Notes under the pieces: model-generated
What the model was told of the DNA's origin: nothing
The model's database searches: none
Seen by the model: only the letters and a program-made list of their open reading frames with translations
Shown: positions 6,114 to 12,321 of the stretch, one piece after another
How the letters are laid out: the number at the start of each line of letters is the position of its first letter
How positions within the stretch are numbered: position 1 is the stretch's first letter
Origin: Mycolicibacterium goodii
Lineage (GTDB): Bacteria > Actinomycetota > Actinomycetes > Mycobacteriales > Mycobacteriaceae
Direction: 5' to 3'
Assembly (NCBI RefSeq): GCF_001187505.1
Contig: NZ_CP012150.1
Span: 4,774,001-4,838,000, forward strand
Length of the DNA stretch: 64,000 nt
Made by a program: the position numbers and the translations under genes

Positions 6114-6139
6114 CCACGGAATCGAGTAGGGAAATCGCC

Positions 6140-7603
6140 ATGACCACATCGAAACCCAGGCCCACGACCACCGACGCCGGTGCGCCCGTGTCCAGCGACA
6201 CCCATTCGCTAACAATCGGTCCCGACGGGCCGATCCTGCTGCACGATCATTACCTCATCGAGCAGATGGCCAACTTCAACCGGGAGCGGATCCCGGAGCG
6301 TCAGCCACATGCCAAGGGATCCGGCGCCTTCGGTCATTTCGAGGTGACCGGCGACGTGAGCCGCCACACGAGTGCCGCGGTGTTCCAACCCGGCGTGCGC
6401 ACCGAAACACTCATCCGGTTCTCCACCGTGGCAGGTGAGCGGGGGAGCCCCGACACCTGGCGCGATCCGCGCGGCTTCGCGCTGCGGTTCTACACCACCG
6501 CGGGCAATCTCGATATCGTCGGCAACAACACACCGGTCTTCTTCATCCGCGACGGCCTGAAGTTCCAGCACTTCATCCGGTCCCAGAAGCGCCGCGCCGA
6601 CACCGGTCTGCGCGACCACGACATGCAGTGGGACTTCTTCACCCTCACTCCGGAGTCCGCGCATCAGGTCGCGTGGCTGTTCGGTGACCGCGGCATCCCG
6701 CGGACCTGGCGGCACATGAACGGCTACGGCTCCCACACCTACAGCTGGATCAACGCCGAAGGCGAGATCCACTGGGTGAAATACCATTTCATCTCCGACC
6801 AGGGCGTCGAGAACCTCACCCAGGCCGAGGCCGACCGGTTGGCCGGCGTCGACGCGGATTTCCACCAGCGGGATCTGCACCAGGCGATCGGTCGCGGTGA
6901 GTACCCCAGTTGGACCCTGAAGGTCCAGCTGATGCCGTTCGACGACGCGAAGACCTACCGGATCAACCCGTTCGACCTGACCAAGGTGTGGCCGCACGCC
7001 GACTATCCGCTCATCGACGTCGGCAGGCTGGTGCTCGACCGCAACTTCACCGACCATCACACCGAGATCGAGCAGGCGGCCTTCGCGCCGAGCAACCAGG
7101 TGCCAGGAACCGGTCTGAGCCCGGACAAGATGCTGCAGGCCCGCACGTTCGCCTACGCCGATGCCGCCAGGGCCCGAATCGGGGTGAACTACAAGCAGAT
7201 TCCGGTCAACGCACCGAAGTCTGCGGTGCACAGCTACTCCAAGGACGGGGCGATGCGGGTCACCAACGTCTCCGATCCGGTGTACGCCCCGAACTCCTAC
7301 GGTGGGCCGCACGCGGACCCGCAGCAGACGAACGAGGCACTGTGGTACGCCGACGGCGACATGGTGCGCGCCGCCTACACGCTGCGGGCCGAGGACGACG
7401 ACTGGAGGCAGGCCGGCCGACTCGTGCGCGAGGTCATGGACGACGAGGAACGCGGCCGACTGGTCGGCAATGTCGCCGGGCACCTGGCCAACGGCGTCTC
7501 GGAACCGGTGTTGCAGAGGGCATTCGAGTACTGGCGCAACATCGACAAGCAGATCGGTGACCGGATCGAGGACGCCGTGCGCAAGGGCCAGGCTTCGAGA
7601 TGA
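6140..7603 (+). CDS. katA: monofunctional heme catalase (small-subunit, clade 3)
   Basis: A 487-residue catalase that dismutates hydrogen peroxide. The catalytic His is in [13 protein letters not shown] (His57), the distal Asn in [10 protein letters not shown] (about residue 129), and the proximal heme ligand in [14 protein letters not shown] (Tyr339). [20 protein letters not shown] matches the heme-binding core. Length fits the small-subunit type without a flavodoxin-like tail. The ATG at 6140 has TAGGGAAA upstream. Its stop overlaps the sigma-factor start (ATGA at 7600), so catalase and sigma factor are translationally coupled. This is a heme enzyme distinct from the KatG encoded at 28.4 kb. 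Confidence 0.95.
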
Positions 7604-8208
7604 TCTGCGACGCAGCGGCCGCACCGAAAGACGGTCCTGGCACCGAACTGAGCGCGCGTTTCGAACGCGACGTGGTGCCCCTGGTGGACCGACTCTACGG
7701 TGCGGCGCTGCGTCTGACGGCCGATCCGCAGGACGCCGAGGACCTGGTGCAGGAGACGGTGCTGCGGGCCTACCTCGGGTTCCACACCTTTCGCGAGGGT
7801 TCCAATCTCATGGCGTGGCTCTACCGCATCCTGCACAACACCTGGATCAACCTGTACCGAAAACGCAGGCGTCGTCCCATGGAGGTGTCGATGGAGGGCG
7901 TCACCGACCACGAGGTGCTGCGCTTTCGGCACGCCCTGCGTTCCGCGGAGGTCGCCGCGCTGGAAGCATTGCCCGACAACGAGATCAGGGAGGCGTTGAT
8001 GGACCTGCGCGAGCAGAACCGCATCGTGGTCTATTACGCCGACGTGGAAGGTCTGTCCTACAAGCAGATCGCCGAGATCACCGGGACCGCGCTCGGAACG
8101 GTCATGAGCCGGTTGCACCGCGGCCGACGGCAGTTGCGCACGGCGTTGCGCCATGTGGCCGAGCAGCGCGGTCTGGTATCCGAAGGCGTCCATGAGACGG
8201 ATCAATGA
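7600..8208 (+). CDS. ECF sigma factor, SigH/RpoE-like
   Basis: A 202-residue extracytoplasmic-function sigma factor. Region 2 spans roughly residues 20-90, with [17 protein letters not shown] (region 2.1-2.2) and [24 protein letters not shown] (2.3-2.4). Region 4 spans about 135-190, with [30 protein letters not shown] as the -35-binding helix-turn-helix. The sequence resembles the SigH oxidative-stress group. Its ATG overlaps the catalase stop and its stop overlaps the cupin start, both as ATGA. No zinc-binding anti-sigma factor with an HxxxCxxC motif follows; the cupin occupies that position. It may direct its own operon, but I could not find a convincing SigH-type promoter upstream of 5457. 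Confidence 0.9.
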
Positions 8209-8744
8209 GCGAGACGGGAAATCTCTTGACCGACGCCGGGATTCTCGCGAATCTTGCCGCCGGGGCCGGTCTTCCCGCCCTCGACGCGGCCGGACCCACC
8301 GTGGAGTTCGTGACGTTCAACGATGACGAACACAACCAGATCTGCGTTCTGCGTGCGGTCATCCCGCCCGGTGTGGCGGTTCCGCTGCACAGCCACAACG
8401 ACTTCGAGGACTTCTACATCCTGTCCGGACGGCACCAGGTGCTGATCCCGGGTGAGCACGGACTGCAGTGGCGCGACGTGCGGGCGGGGGATTACGTGCG
8501 GGTTCCGGGCGACGCACTACATGCGCACCGCAACATTTCCGACGAGCCCGCTGTCGACCTCGTCATCACCACGCCGCAAATCGGCCGGTTCTTCCGCGAG
8601 ATAGGCCGCCCGGCGGGTTCGCCACCGATGACACCGGCCGAACTCGGCCATTTTGTGGCGACGGCGCAACGCTACGGCTACCGCCTGGGAACTCCCGAGG
8701 AGAATGCCGCGGTCGGTATCACGTTGCCCAACTTCACCTCCTGA
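8205..8744 (+). CDS. cupin-domain protein coupled to an ECF sigma factor
   Basis: A 179-residue single-domain cupin. The first cupin motif is [17 protein letters not shown] (His, His and Glu in metal-ligand positions), and the second is [16 protein letters not shown] with a further His. It should form a small beta-barrel able to bind a metal or small ligand. The C-terminal third ([10 protein letters not shown] onward) is an alpha-helical tail. The ATG overlaps the sigma-factor stop (ATGA at 8205). By position it replaces the usual anti-sigma factor. ChrR-type anti-sigma factors in other bacteria carry a cupin domain, but the N-terminal zinc-binding domain of ChrR is not obvious here. It could be a sensor, an anti-sigma factor or a dioxygenase-like enzyme. 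Confidence 0.8.
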
Positions 8745-8745
8745 G

Positions 8746-9408
8746 TCACACCGCGCCGACGCGCCGGGAGGCGAGCTCCTTGAGTTCGGTGGCCAGCGCG
8801 TCGGCGCGCAGGATCTCCGGCAGCAGGTCCGGTTCGCCGGTGATGGCGCGGAACACGATGCCGATGGTGATGCCGTGATCCGGCCGGTCGACGATCTCGA
8901 CCGCGTCTCCGGCGCGCACCTGCCCGGGTTGCACCAGTCGCAGGTAGGCACCCGGATTCCCGGCCCTGGTAAAGGTTTTCATCAGTCCGTTGATGTCGAG
9001 GAACGCCGCGAAGGTTCGGCACGGCGTGCGGGGCCGGGTCACCTCGAGCTCCAGACCGCCGGTGCCGATGCGCCACCGTTCACCGATCACGGCATTGGTC
9101 ACGTCGATGCCCTCGGTGGTGAGGTTCTCGCCGAACATGCCGTTGGTGAGTTCGCGATCGAGTGTCACCTGCCAGTTGTCGAGATCCTCGCGCGCATAGG
9201 CGTACACGGCCTGATCGTCACCGCCGTGGTGCCTGGAGTTGCCGATGACATCGCCCACCAACCCGCTGCCGAGGCCACCGCGCCGCGGGCCGGGGGAGCG
9301 GACCTCGACCGCGCCGTCGACAGGGCGCTTGTCGATACCGGTGACGCGCTTCCCGTTGTCCGGGTTCGGACAGGGATGTGCCACGTTGACGGTGAGGACT
9401 CTGGGCAT
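8746..9408 (-). CDS. MOSC-domain protein (YiiM-like)
   Basis: A 220-residue MOSC-domain protein, the family whose members transfer sulfur to or use molybdenum cofactor; YiiM-type proteins reduce N-hydroxylated compounds. The core FGENLTTEGIDVTNAVIGERW (about residues 95-115) is characteristic, and TRPRTPCRTFAAFL carries the conserved Cys that would hold the cofactor. The ATG at 9408 gives the usual N-terminus (MPRVLTVNVAHP); longer in-frame extensions lack similarity. It converges on the cupin gene with only one base between the stops. No adjacent molybdenum-cofactor gene is present. Confidence 0.85.
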   Translation of the reverse strand: MPRVLTVNVAHPCPNPDNGKRVTGIDKRPVDGAVEVRSPGPRRGGLGSGLVGDVIGNSRHHGGDDQAVYAYAREDLDNWQVTLDRELTNGMFGENLTTEGIDVTNAVIGERWRIGTGGLELEVTRPRTPCRTFAAFLDINGLMKTFTRAGNPGAYLRLVQPGQVRAGDAVEIVDRPDHGITIGIVFRAITGEPDLLPEILRADALATELKELASRRVGAV

Positions 9409-9469
9409 GGCGGCCAGCCTAGTTGGCCACCGGCTCGGGCTCGAATCGAATATCGCGCGGGGTGAACAC

Positions 9470-9724
9470 CTACCCCGCGGGCGCAATGTTCGGCGGTGGT
9501 GGGGGCGGTGCGTCCTTGAGGCACAGACCGGTGGCGGTGTCGAGGTGCCTACCTGGGACGCAGAACGGGGCGCACCCGTTGGTCACGCCGGTCTCGCCGG
9601 GTTGGCATGCCGCGCTCACGGCCGGTGTCGCGATCGTCGTCACACCCATCGGGGCGGCGGCCAGCGCGGCGACCGACAATCCCCACAACGCCGTGCGCAC
9701 ACCCCGCCGAATCGTCCACGTCAT
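9470..9724 (-). CDS. small secreted cysteine-containing protein
   Basis: An 84-residue exported peptide. Residues 1-38 form a Sec signal (RRGVRTALWGLSVAALAAAP, with a likely cut after PAVSA). The mature part is about 46 residues and holds four cysteines (ACQPGETG, GCAPFC, GLCLKD), enough for two disulfides, then a Pro-rich tail. Mycobacteria encode several peptides of this size and style with unknown function. It is on the minus strand behind the MOSC gene and is transcribed toward it. Confidence 0.7.
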   Translation of the reverse strand: MTWTIRRGVRTALWGLSVAALAAAPMGVTTIATPAVSAACQPGETGVTNGCAPFCVPGRHLDTATGLCLKDAPPPPPPNIAPAG

Positions 9725-9828: not shown

Positions 9829-10836
9829 GTGCAGACCCTGATCGACTTCGAGCGTGCGCCGGCCTTCGCGATCGCGTTGACCGATCCGGTGGGCACCATG
9901 ACCGTGCGCGAAGGCCTGCTCATCGAGGGGCCGCAGGGGTGGGGTGAGTTCAGCCCGGCCGCCGGTGCTCCGCACACCGGCGGCGCCGCGTCGCACGAGG
10001 CGACGATCCGGTGGCTGACCGCGGCCATCGAACCCGGAACGGTCGGCTGGCCCGACCCGGTGCGCGGCCGGGTCCCGGTGGCAGTGTCGGTGCCCACGGT
10101 CGATGCGCGACGGGCCCGCGAGATCGCCGCCGGATCGCCGTGCCGCACGGCGTCGGTCGAGGTCGGTGTGGGCAGCCTCGATGAGGACGCGGCCAGGGTC
10201 GCCGCGGTGCGTGACGCGCTCGGTCCCGACGCGGCGCTGCGGTGCGACGCCAGGGGCCGATGGGACGTCGACACGGCCCGCACGGCCATCGCCGCACTCG
10301 ACGCCGCCGCCGGTGGCCTGGAGTTCGTCGAACGACCCTGTGCGACGCTCGCCGAACTGGTCCGGCTGCGCAGGCACAGCGACGTGCCCATCGCGGCGCA
10401 CGCGACCGCGCGGGACGCCGCGTCGGATCCGGGCACGCCGGTGGATCCGCTGCTGCGCGACGCCGCCGATGTCGTGGTGCTGGCGTGCGGACCTCTCGGT
10501 GGTGCGCGGCGAGCCCTTCGCGTGGCCGAGGCCGCGGGACTGCCGTGCGTGGTCACCTCGATGCTGGAGACCAGCGTCGGGTTGGCGGCCGGGCTCGCCG
10601 TGGCGGGCGCGCTGCCCGAGTTGCCGTTCGCCTGCCAGTTGGGCACCCGGCCGCTGCTGGCGGGTGATCTCGTCGTCGCCTCGCGCTCGCTCGTGGCCGA
10701 CGCCGACGGCCACCTGCCGGTCGCACCGATGCCACCGGCCCCGCAGCCCGAGCTGCTCGAGCAGTTCGCGATGAGCGATCCGGCCCGGCTGTCGTGGTGG
10801 CGCGAGTGTCTGCGTGCCGCCGTCGCGGCCAGCTGA
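9829..10836 (+). CDS. MenC-like enolase-superfamily protein lacking catalytic lysines
   Basis: A 335-residue protein with the fold and sequence pattern of o-succinylbenzoate synthase (MenC), including GWGEFSP, RCDARGRWD, EFVERP and GLPCVVTSMLETSVG. In MenC the catalytic bases are a KxK lysine pair and a second lysine opposite, with Asp, Glu and Asp/Glu binding magnesium. Here the KxK position reads Ser109-Val-Glu111, the opposite lysine is Ala219, and the third metal ligand is His191, while Asp140 and Glu168 remain. I find no lysine anywhere in the protein. It is therefore unlikely to make o-succinylbenzoate by the known mechanism and may be a diverged paralogue or a non-enzyme. The GTG start follows TAGCGT by nine bases. 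No other men gene is nearby. Confidence 0.8.
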   Translation: MQTLIDFERAPAFAIALTDPVGTMTVREGLLIEGPQGWGEFSPAAGAPHTGGAASHEATIRWLTAAIEPGTVGWPDPVRGRVPVAVSVPTVDARRAREIAAGSPCRTASVEVGVGSLDEDAARVAAVRDALGPDAALRCDARGRWDVDTARTAIAALDAAAGGLEFVERPCATLAELVRLRRHSDVPIAAHATARDAASDPGTPVDPLLRDAADVVVLACGPLGGARRALRVAEAAGLPCVVTSMLETSVGLAAGLAVAGALPELPFACQLGTRPLLAGDLVVASRSLVADADGHLPVAPMPPAPQPELLEQFAMSDPARLSWWRECLRAAVAAS

Positions 10837-11739: not shown

Positions 11740-11826
11740 CGGAACCCATGATCCCCGCCGCCGCCGCGACCTGCCGTCGCACCCCGGACTGTTCGTACCG
11801 GCCCGAGTTTTGACAGACTGTTGCCC

Positions 11827-12321
11827 ATGGCACAGATAACCCTGCGTGGAAACCCCATCAACACCGTCGGCGAGCTGCCCGCGGTCGGCTCCGCGGCCCC
11901 GAGCTTCTCTCTCGTCGGCACCGACCTCGGCGCGGTCACCAGTGACCAGTTCAGCGGCAAGCCGGTCCTGCTGAACATCTTCCCGTCGGTCGATACGCCG
12001 GTCTGCGCCACCAGCGTCCGCACCTTCAACGAGAAGGCCGCGTCCAGCGGTGCCACCGTGCTGTGCGTGTCGAAGGATCTGCCGTTCGCGCAGAAGCGCT
12101 TCTGCGGTGCCGAGGGGATCGAGAACGTCACCACCGCGTCGGCGTTCCGTGACAGCTTCGGTGAGGACTTCGGCATCACGATCGCCGATGGGCCGATGGC
12201 CGGTCTGCTGGGCCGGGCGGTTGTCGTGCTCGGCGCCGACGGCAAGGTCGCGTACAGCGAACTGGTGCCGGAGATCGGGCAGGAACCCGACTACGATGCG
12301 GCGCTGAAAGCGCTCAGCTGA
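11827..12321 (+). CDS. tpx: thiol peroxidase (Tpx), atypical 2-Cys peroxiredoxin
   Basis: A 164-residue thioredoxin-dependent peroxidase that reduces hydroperoxides in the cytoplasm. The peroxidatic Cys60 is in SVDTPVCATS and the resolving Cys93 is in KRFCGAEG, the standard Tpx spacing; a third Cys80 lies between. Start at the ATG at 11827 gives MAQITLRGNPINTVGELP, the usual Tpx beginning. It is transcribed away from the kinase-like gene and ends at a strong shared terminator. Confidence 0.95.
   Translation: MAQITLRGNPINTVGELPAVGSAAPSFSLVGTDLGAVTSDQFSGKPVLLNIFPSVDTPVCATSVRTFNEKAASSGATVLCVSKDLPFAQKRFCGAEGIENVTTASAFRDSFGEDFGITIADGPMAGLLGRAVVVLGADGKVAYSELVPEIGQEPDYDAALKALS

Follow-up and report, generated by a model that had tools for sequence, protein, structure and literature searches.

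Results

The MenC2 Gene and Its Product

The analyzed window is a stretch of 64,000 nucleotides from the genome of Mycolicibacterium goodii (7.1 Mb, a single contig). A pseudo-MenC gene, named MenC2 here, occupies positions 9829–10836 of the forward strand; it starts with GTG, ends with a stop codon at 10834–10836, and encodes 335 amino acids. Both the enolase C-terminal and the enolase N-terminal-like domains of Pfam match the protein, which has the two parts of the enolase superfamily fold, a capping domain and a (beta/alpha) barrel, the latter predicted to be well formed. The closest solved structures are those of the MenC proteins 2opj and 2qvh. The MenC equivalog model of NCBIfam (NF002782) gives the window protein 271.3 bits, below the cut-off of 288. 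Among five further MenC2 proteins scored singly, P0012 passes with 330 bits, while P0005 (273), P0090 (282), and the short forms P0132 (129) and P0166 (124), described below, do not. In databases most named relatives of MenC2 are called o-succinylbenzoate synthase, and a few are named "enolase C-terminal domain-like" or "hypothetical".

When aligned with 45 canonical MenC proteins, the window protein shows the residues listed in the preliminary description of the locus, namely Ser109/Glu111, Ala219, His191, and the absence of any lysine from the 335 residues. All 45 canonical proteins carry K109, K111, D140, N142, E168, D191, E192, and K219, whereas the window protein has S109, E111, D140, R142, E168, H191, A192, and A219. 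On the forward strand, Ser-Val-Glu (residues 109–111; 10153–10161) stands where the KxK lysines of barrel strand 2 were lost. The equivalents of the first and second metal ligands, Asp140 (10246–10248) and Glu168 (10330–10332), are retained, His191 (10399–10401) replaces the third ligand Asp, and Ala219 (10483–10485) replaces the opposite catalytic lysine. Compared with actinobacterial MenC (NF002782; 2opj, 2qvh), other residues stand in MenC2 at the three catalytic lysines and at one metal ligand. The window protein departs from MenC in the NF002782 score, the KxK motif, Lys219, and the Asp/Glu/Asp metal triad. Because the catalytic lysines are absent, MenC2 is predicted, very likely correctly, to have no MenC activity. 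The lysine-free state itself is unremarkable: 26 of the 105 MenC2 members read contain no lysine, the mean being 1.03 per protein, and canonical MenC has on average 1.6 non-catalytic lysines. A sequencing error was rejected as the source of the lost lysines: a protein from another species, 82% identical to that of the window (L033), carries the same S/E/H/A residues, and no member has either K109 or K111.

The preliminary description treated the gene as a paralogue and proposed a search for the canonical MenC elsewhere in the genome. Such a gene, MenC1, is present at G000:C1:7093385-7094344, 3.1 kb from menD, with all eight catalytic positions intact (K/K/D/N/E/D/E/K) and an NF002782 score of 504.3 bits, which rules out MenC2 as the only MenC of the genome. 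MenC1 is homologous to MenC2 (45% identity) and differs from it in its full catalytic set and in having the barrel as the more constrained half. The distance from MenC2 to MenC1 and menD is 2.3 Mb.

Gene Neighborhood

Three main arrangements of MenC2 are seen among the loci compared. The window type consists of a MOSC-domain gene (8746–9486, reverse strand), which is a shared neighbor in this arrangement, an 84-residue open reading frame divergent from MenC2 (9470–9724, reverse strand), MenC2 itself, a kinase-like gene, a thiol peroxidase-like gene (Redoxin; 11821–12321, forward strand), TenA, and NlpC/P60. The 84-residue frame matches no Pfam family and is conserved in window-type loci; it has a hydrophobic start and a Cys/Pro-rich end, and it lies at 91–140 bp in 17 loci and at 638–643 bp in 3 (the window included). 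In the second type, furA-katG and a mycobacterial methylenetetrahydrofolate reductase (MTHFR) gene, the latter directly upstream, accompany MenC2. The third type, with an overlapping gene upstream and a cytochrome P450 gene downstream, accounts for 9 of 80 loci. Farther upstream in the window, at 6137–8744, genes for a catalase (PF00199), an ECF sigma factor, and a cupin follow one another, flanked by the HD-domain and MOSC genes; among 81 neighbor loci the catalase occurs in the window only, and the sigma factor with the cupin in one other (L119).

The MTHFR gene, assigned to MTHFR_2 (PF19345) by a scan of one representative and by clustering for the other loci, immediately precedes MenC2 in 30 of 80 loci, all within the range L085–L139, and in 24 of these 30 the two genes overlap, as judged by estimated starts. 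Of 20 genomes checked, 4 have no MTHFR_2 gene other than the one beside MenC2. One more MTHFR_2 copy, interrupted by an internal stop and by a frame break, is present in a genome closely related to that of the window (G218:C1:3486879-3487756).

In 81 loci the sequence extends 5 kb or more to each side of MenC2. Genes for KatG/Fur, thiol peroxidase (Tpx), or catalase lie within 5 kb of MenC2 in 67 of these, the thiol peroxidase-like gene in 38. Both furA-katG and tpx, one on either side of MenC2, are found in several scattered branches (L093, L095, L207, L211). This suggests one old locus among peroxide-defense genes; the arrangement is inherited and no more than hints at a function. No single operon partner conserved across the clade was seen, the MTHFR, P450, cutinase, and MOSC neighbors each being limited to parts of the tree.

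Distribution and Phylogeny

A search with the window protein finds MenC2 in 67 of 198 genomes of the genus (a hand count of listed matches down to E 3e-64, of which 53 were read as proteins), and each of the 67 genomes has at least one further MenC homologue. Of 396 genomes searched within the genus, 161 have a match below E 1e-15 to a query made of 72 capping-domain residues; this number is a hand count of the 184 matches at E 1e-8 minus 23 whose E values are weak (1e-8 to 8.7e-12). These 23 are presumed to be of the MenC1 type, although they include G286, which carries a MenC2 cut by a contig end. The other 235 genomes have no match to this query below E 1e-15, and therefore most mycobacteria seem to manage without MenC2.

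A tree built from 138 distinct proteins places MenC2 in a single clade (support 100) separate from mycobacterial MenC1; canonical MenC proteins from other genera of the family and order lie next to it (support 81). These are quick trees with SH-aLRT support only, built from columns that include the catalytic ones, and the placement of the long rows L211 and L209 is unsure. The 93 rows first labeled as paralogues for lacking Lys at both 109 and 111 then fell into this one clade without exception. The clade as read is limited to Mycobacterium in the wide sense, and all 42 distinct proteins read from outside the genus are canonical MenC with an intact catalytic set. The simplest history would be a single loss of the lysines, on the stem leading to the mycobacterial clade. 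Since the clade adjoins canonical MenC from genera of the same family and order, a horizontal gain from outside the order is unneeded.

Contigs with MenC2 from metagenome bins assigned to Bifidobacterium, Acidobacteria, or unnamed actinomycetes (L086, L093, L103, L122) group inside the mycobacterial clade and look mis-binned. Genome G159 has two intact canonical MenC copies (L220, L232), from either assembly contamination or duplication. A MenC1-type gene cut by a contig end in the fragmented assembly G289 (L230) reads Arg-Val-Lys at KxK, a lone deviation.

Variation at the Former Catalytic Positions

The set of 105 MenC2 members includes L138, cut by a contig end (225 residues), and two proteins of 297–298 residues. 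A phylogeny had been proposed as a check on whether the substitutions are common to the branch, and the loss of KxK is: neither lysine occurs in any member. The residues that replace the catalytic ones are not common to the branch. The usual residues are A, D, E, S, or T at position 109, E, R, T, V, or A at 111, and A, R, T, D, S, or H at 219, where Lys occurs in 1 of the 105. A residue other than Asp is found at position 140 in 47 members, Glu is found at 168 in 39, and position 191 is His in 9 and Asp in 44. Only L033 has the same S/E/H/A combination as the window protein. The Asp/Glu/Asp triad as a whole is kept in 14 members, so some lineages might still bind a metal, and this state changes at least nine times on the tree. 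The entropy of the eight catalytic positions ranks at the 80th–99th percentile of the protein in MenC2 and is zero in canonical MenC. A new conserved catalytic set, sought by column conservation at the pocket positions of the MenC2 clade, was not found. Because relatives should share such a set, Ser/Glu/His would not be one, and the "rebuilt active site" of the preliminary description gives way to a pocket with varying replacements.

Selection on MenC2

Within 19 genomes that have both copies, MenC2 shows an omega of 0.102 and MenC1 one of 0.053; on fixed trees the estimates are 0.119 and 0.062. Because synonymous sites are heavily diverged these values are rough, and their direction is clear. 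Forcing omega to 1 on MenC2 costs about 970 log-likelihood units. There is no internal stop in 67 MenC2 matches from 198 genomes of the genus, and 42 columns are invariant across 74 MenC2 sequences. Thus, judging from these alignments, MenC2 is under purifying selection. The earlier suggestion of a kept, changed function and not random decay holds for the keeping, given an omega of about 0.10; the rebuilt active site is not supported, no pocket set being shared. With the catalytic motif of the parent missing and the gene kept by selection, MenC2 has the features of a pseudoenzyme.

Shift of Constraint to the Capping Domain

The borders of the capping domain (residues 1–80 and 278–335) were taken from predicted secondary structure. 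Positions were scored as newly conserved or released at thresholds of our choosing (95%/70% and 95%/60%, respectively). Of 25 newly fixed positions, conserved in the clade and not in canonical MenC, 20 belong to the capping domain. Of 27 released positions, which canonical MenC conserves and the clade does not, 22 are in the barrel and 5 (positions 21, 22, 27, 44, and 54) in the 20s and 50s loops. These loops cover the active site in the enolase superfamily, and the loss of conservation at these five positions is a further difference of the clade from actinobacterial MenC. The shift between cap and barrel has a Fisher p of 1.8e-5; other domain borders give 6.8e-5 or 1.8e-3.

Omega values by domain point the same way. 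They are 0.086 for the cap and 0.049 for the barrel in MenC1, and 0.095 and 0.133 in MenC2. Thus, by codon comparison, the MenC2 cap is more constrained than the barrel, the reverse of MenC1. The barrel is relaxed, not free of function, because an omega of 0.13 still means purifying selection.

Three stretches of the capping domain, all on the forward strand, carry the signatures of the clade. Residues 28–41 (9910–9951) correspond to EGLLIEGPQGWGEF, with E33 and Q36 invariant in all 105 members, and residues 61–81 (10009–10071) to RWLTAAxExGTVGWPDxxRGR, with T71 and G80 likewise invariant. Residues 280–300 (10666–10728), at the C-terminal return to the capping domain, have the signature DxVxxxRxLxPxxGxLPVAP, in which R286, P297, and P300 are found in 104 of 105.

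In one subclade, to which M. vaccae and M. chubuense belong among others, an in-frame deletion has removed the barrel segment alpha1-beta2-alpha2 and left the cap in place. These short MenC2 forms (L233, L234, and L236–L245) are in frame, 256–292 residues long, and devoid of the barrel part around the KxK strand. The N-terminal capping domain of most is 60–67% identical to that of the window protein (55% in G190). Their omega is 0.081 in the cap and 0.161 in the barrel.

Discussion

Since all three catalytic lysines are missing and the sequence is nonetheless preserved beside a normal MenC, MenC2 is likely a binding protein and not an enzyme. We put a probability of about 0.66 on MenC2 being a binding protein without catalysis, for which the capping domain is the predicted site of action; that its function is non-catalytic we infer from the shift of constraint to the cap. 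A natural scenario is that the menaquinone step passed to the second MenC, encoded near menD, and that the MenC2 copy was thereby freed; this copy would have lost its lysines once on the stem and then, in many lineages, its metal site. The cap may have become a binding surface for a partner, which would account for the survival of the gene, and the barrel may now mainly hold the cap and be in the course of being dismantled in some lineages. In its fullest form this scenario is of an enzyme turned inside out, in which the nearly invariant cap does the work and the barrel is physically taken apart, as where the M. vaccae and M. chubuense types have lost strand 2 with its helices; the odds for this full form appear evenly balanced. 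The candidate partners would be, by neighborhood, peroxide-defense proteins or MTHFR and, by precedent, MenC1. The newly fixed cap residues, several of them Arg, Asp, or Glu, could alternatively constitute an internal salt-bridge network that stabilizes the fold and not an interface.

Four other explanations were weighed. In the first, Ser, Glu, and His in the old pocket would run a changed enolase-superfamily reaction. The predicted well-formed barrel and the position of Asp140, Glu168, and His191 at ligand sites speak for it; however, the pocket positions rank among the most variable of the clade, and fairly close relatives differ at them (A/E/D/K/T/G/A in the M. peregrinum group, against S/E/D/R/E/H/A in the window protein). 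With the KxK strand also deleted from a subclade, such an enzyme is very improbable. Loss of catalytic residues, erosion of barrel segments, and absence of the gene from many species would also be seen in a decaying pseudogene whose frames are still open by chance. This is hardly credible in view of the omega of about 0.10, the rejection of omega = 1 by the codon model (unless saturation misleads), the uninterrupted frames and invariant columns described above, and the omega of 0.087 in the short forms.

The two remaining explanations concern the identity of a partner. MenC2 may be a regulatory or stabilizing subunit of active MenC1, in a heteromer like that of GlucDRP with glucarate dehydratase (GlucD). 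All 67 carriers have a further MenC homologue by match counts, MenC1 is intact in all 19 aligned genomes, and passages of PMC10211241 describe pseudoenzymes that serve their active relatives as allosteric partners. A precedent within the superfamily is the GlucD–GlucDRP heterotetramer (PDB 4gyp, by its entry title). Like MenC2, GlucDRP (PDB 4gyp, 4il0) is an enolase-superfamily paralogue, and it was found in a heteromer with its active relative; however, it belongs to a different family (18–19% identity), and for MenC2 such a heteromer would be a prediction. Given that MenC2 lies 2.3 Mb from menD and MenC1 in the window's genome, that 235 of 396 genomes of the genus have no cap match below E 1e-15, and that short forms devoid of part of the barrel would need the same interface, we consider a MenC1 subunit rather unlikely. 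A role as partner of the adjoining MTHFR or peroxide-defense genes is in keeping with the MTHFR_2 gene upstream in 30 of 80 loci, sole of its kind in four genomes of that type, and with the peroxide-defense neighbors of 67 of 81 loci. We regard this role as improbable: the MTHFR linkage counts as approximately one event because it is essentially found in one clade, both MTHFR_2 genes of the window's genome are unlinked to MenC2, 14 of the 81 loci have no peroxide genes within 5 kb, and the neighborhood is shared by descent.

Pseudoenzymes are well known as a class, as passages of PMC10211241 set out. The nearest described likeness to MenC2 is AAZ54998, an OSBS-like protein annotated as OSBS and judged not to be one, in which the general-base lysine K166 is replaced by His (PMC2781113). 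It is, however, a single sequence in which one residue is replaced and further motifs are changed, and the available passages of PMC2781113 contain no clade, capping-domain takeover, or barrel deletion. Titles and opening lines of abstracts in the open-access literature likewise gave no description of the MenC2 clade, of constraint shifted to the cap, or of a shrinking barrel.

Because databases call most named MenC2 relatives o-succinylbenzoate synthase, MenC copy counts in mycobacterial metabolic models and target lists would be wrong where MenC2 is present. The MenC2 proteins and their kin provide a series from intact relatives through loss of the lysines and of the metal site to deletion of a barrel segment, that is, a TIM barrel losing its chemistry while another domain takes over. 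If an enzyme was indeed turned inside out here, the cap would be a new binding module that evolved from an enzyme lid, and its partner would be a testable new piece of mycobacterial physiology.
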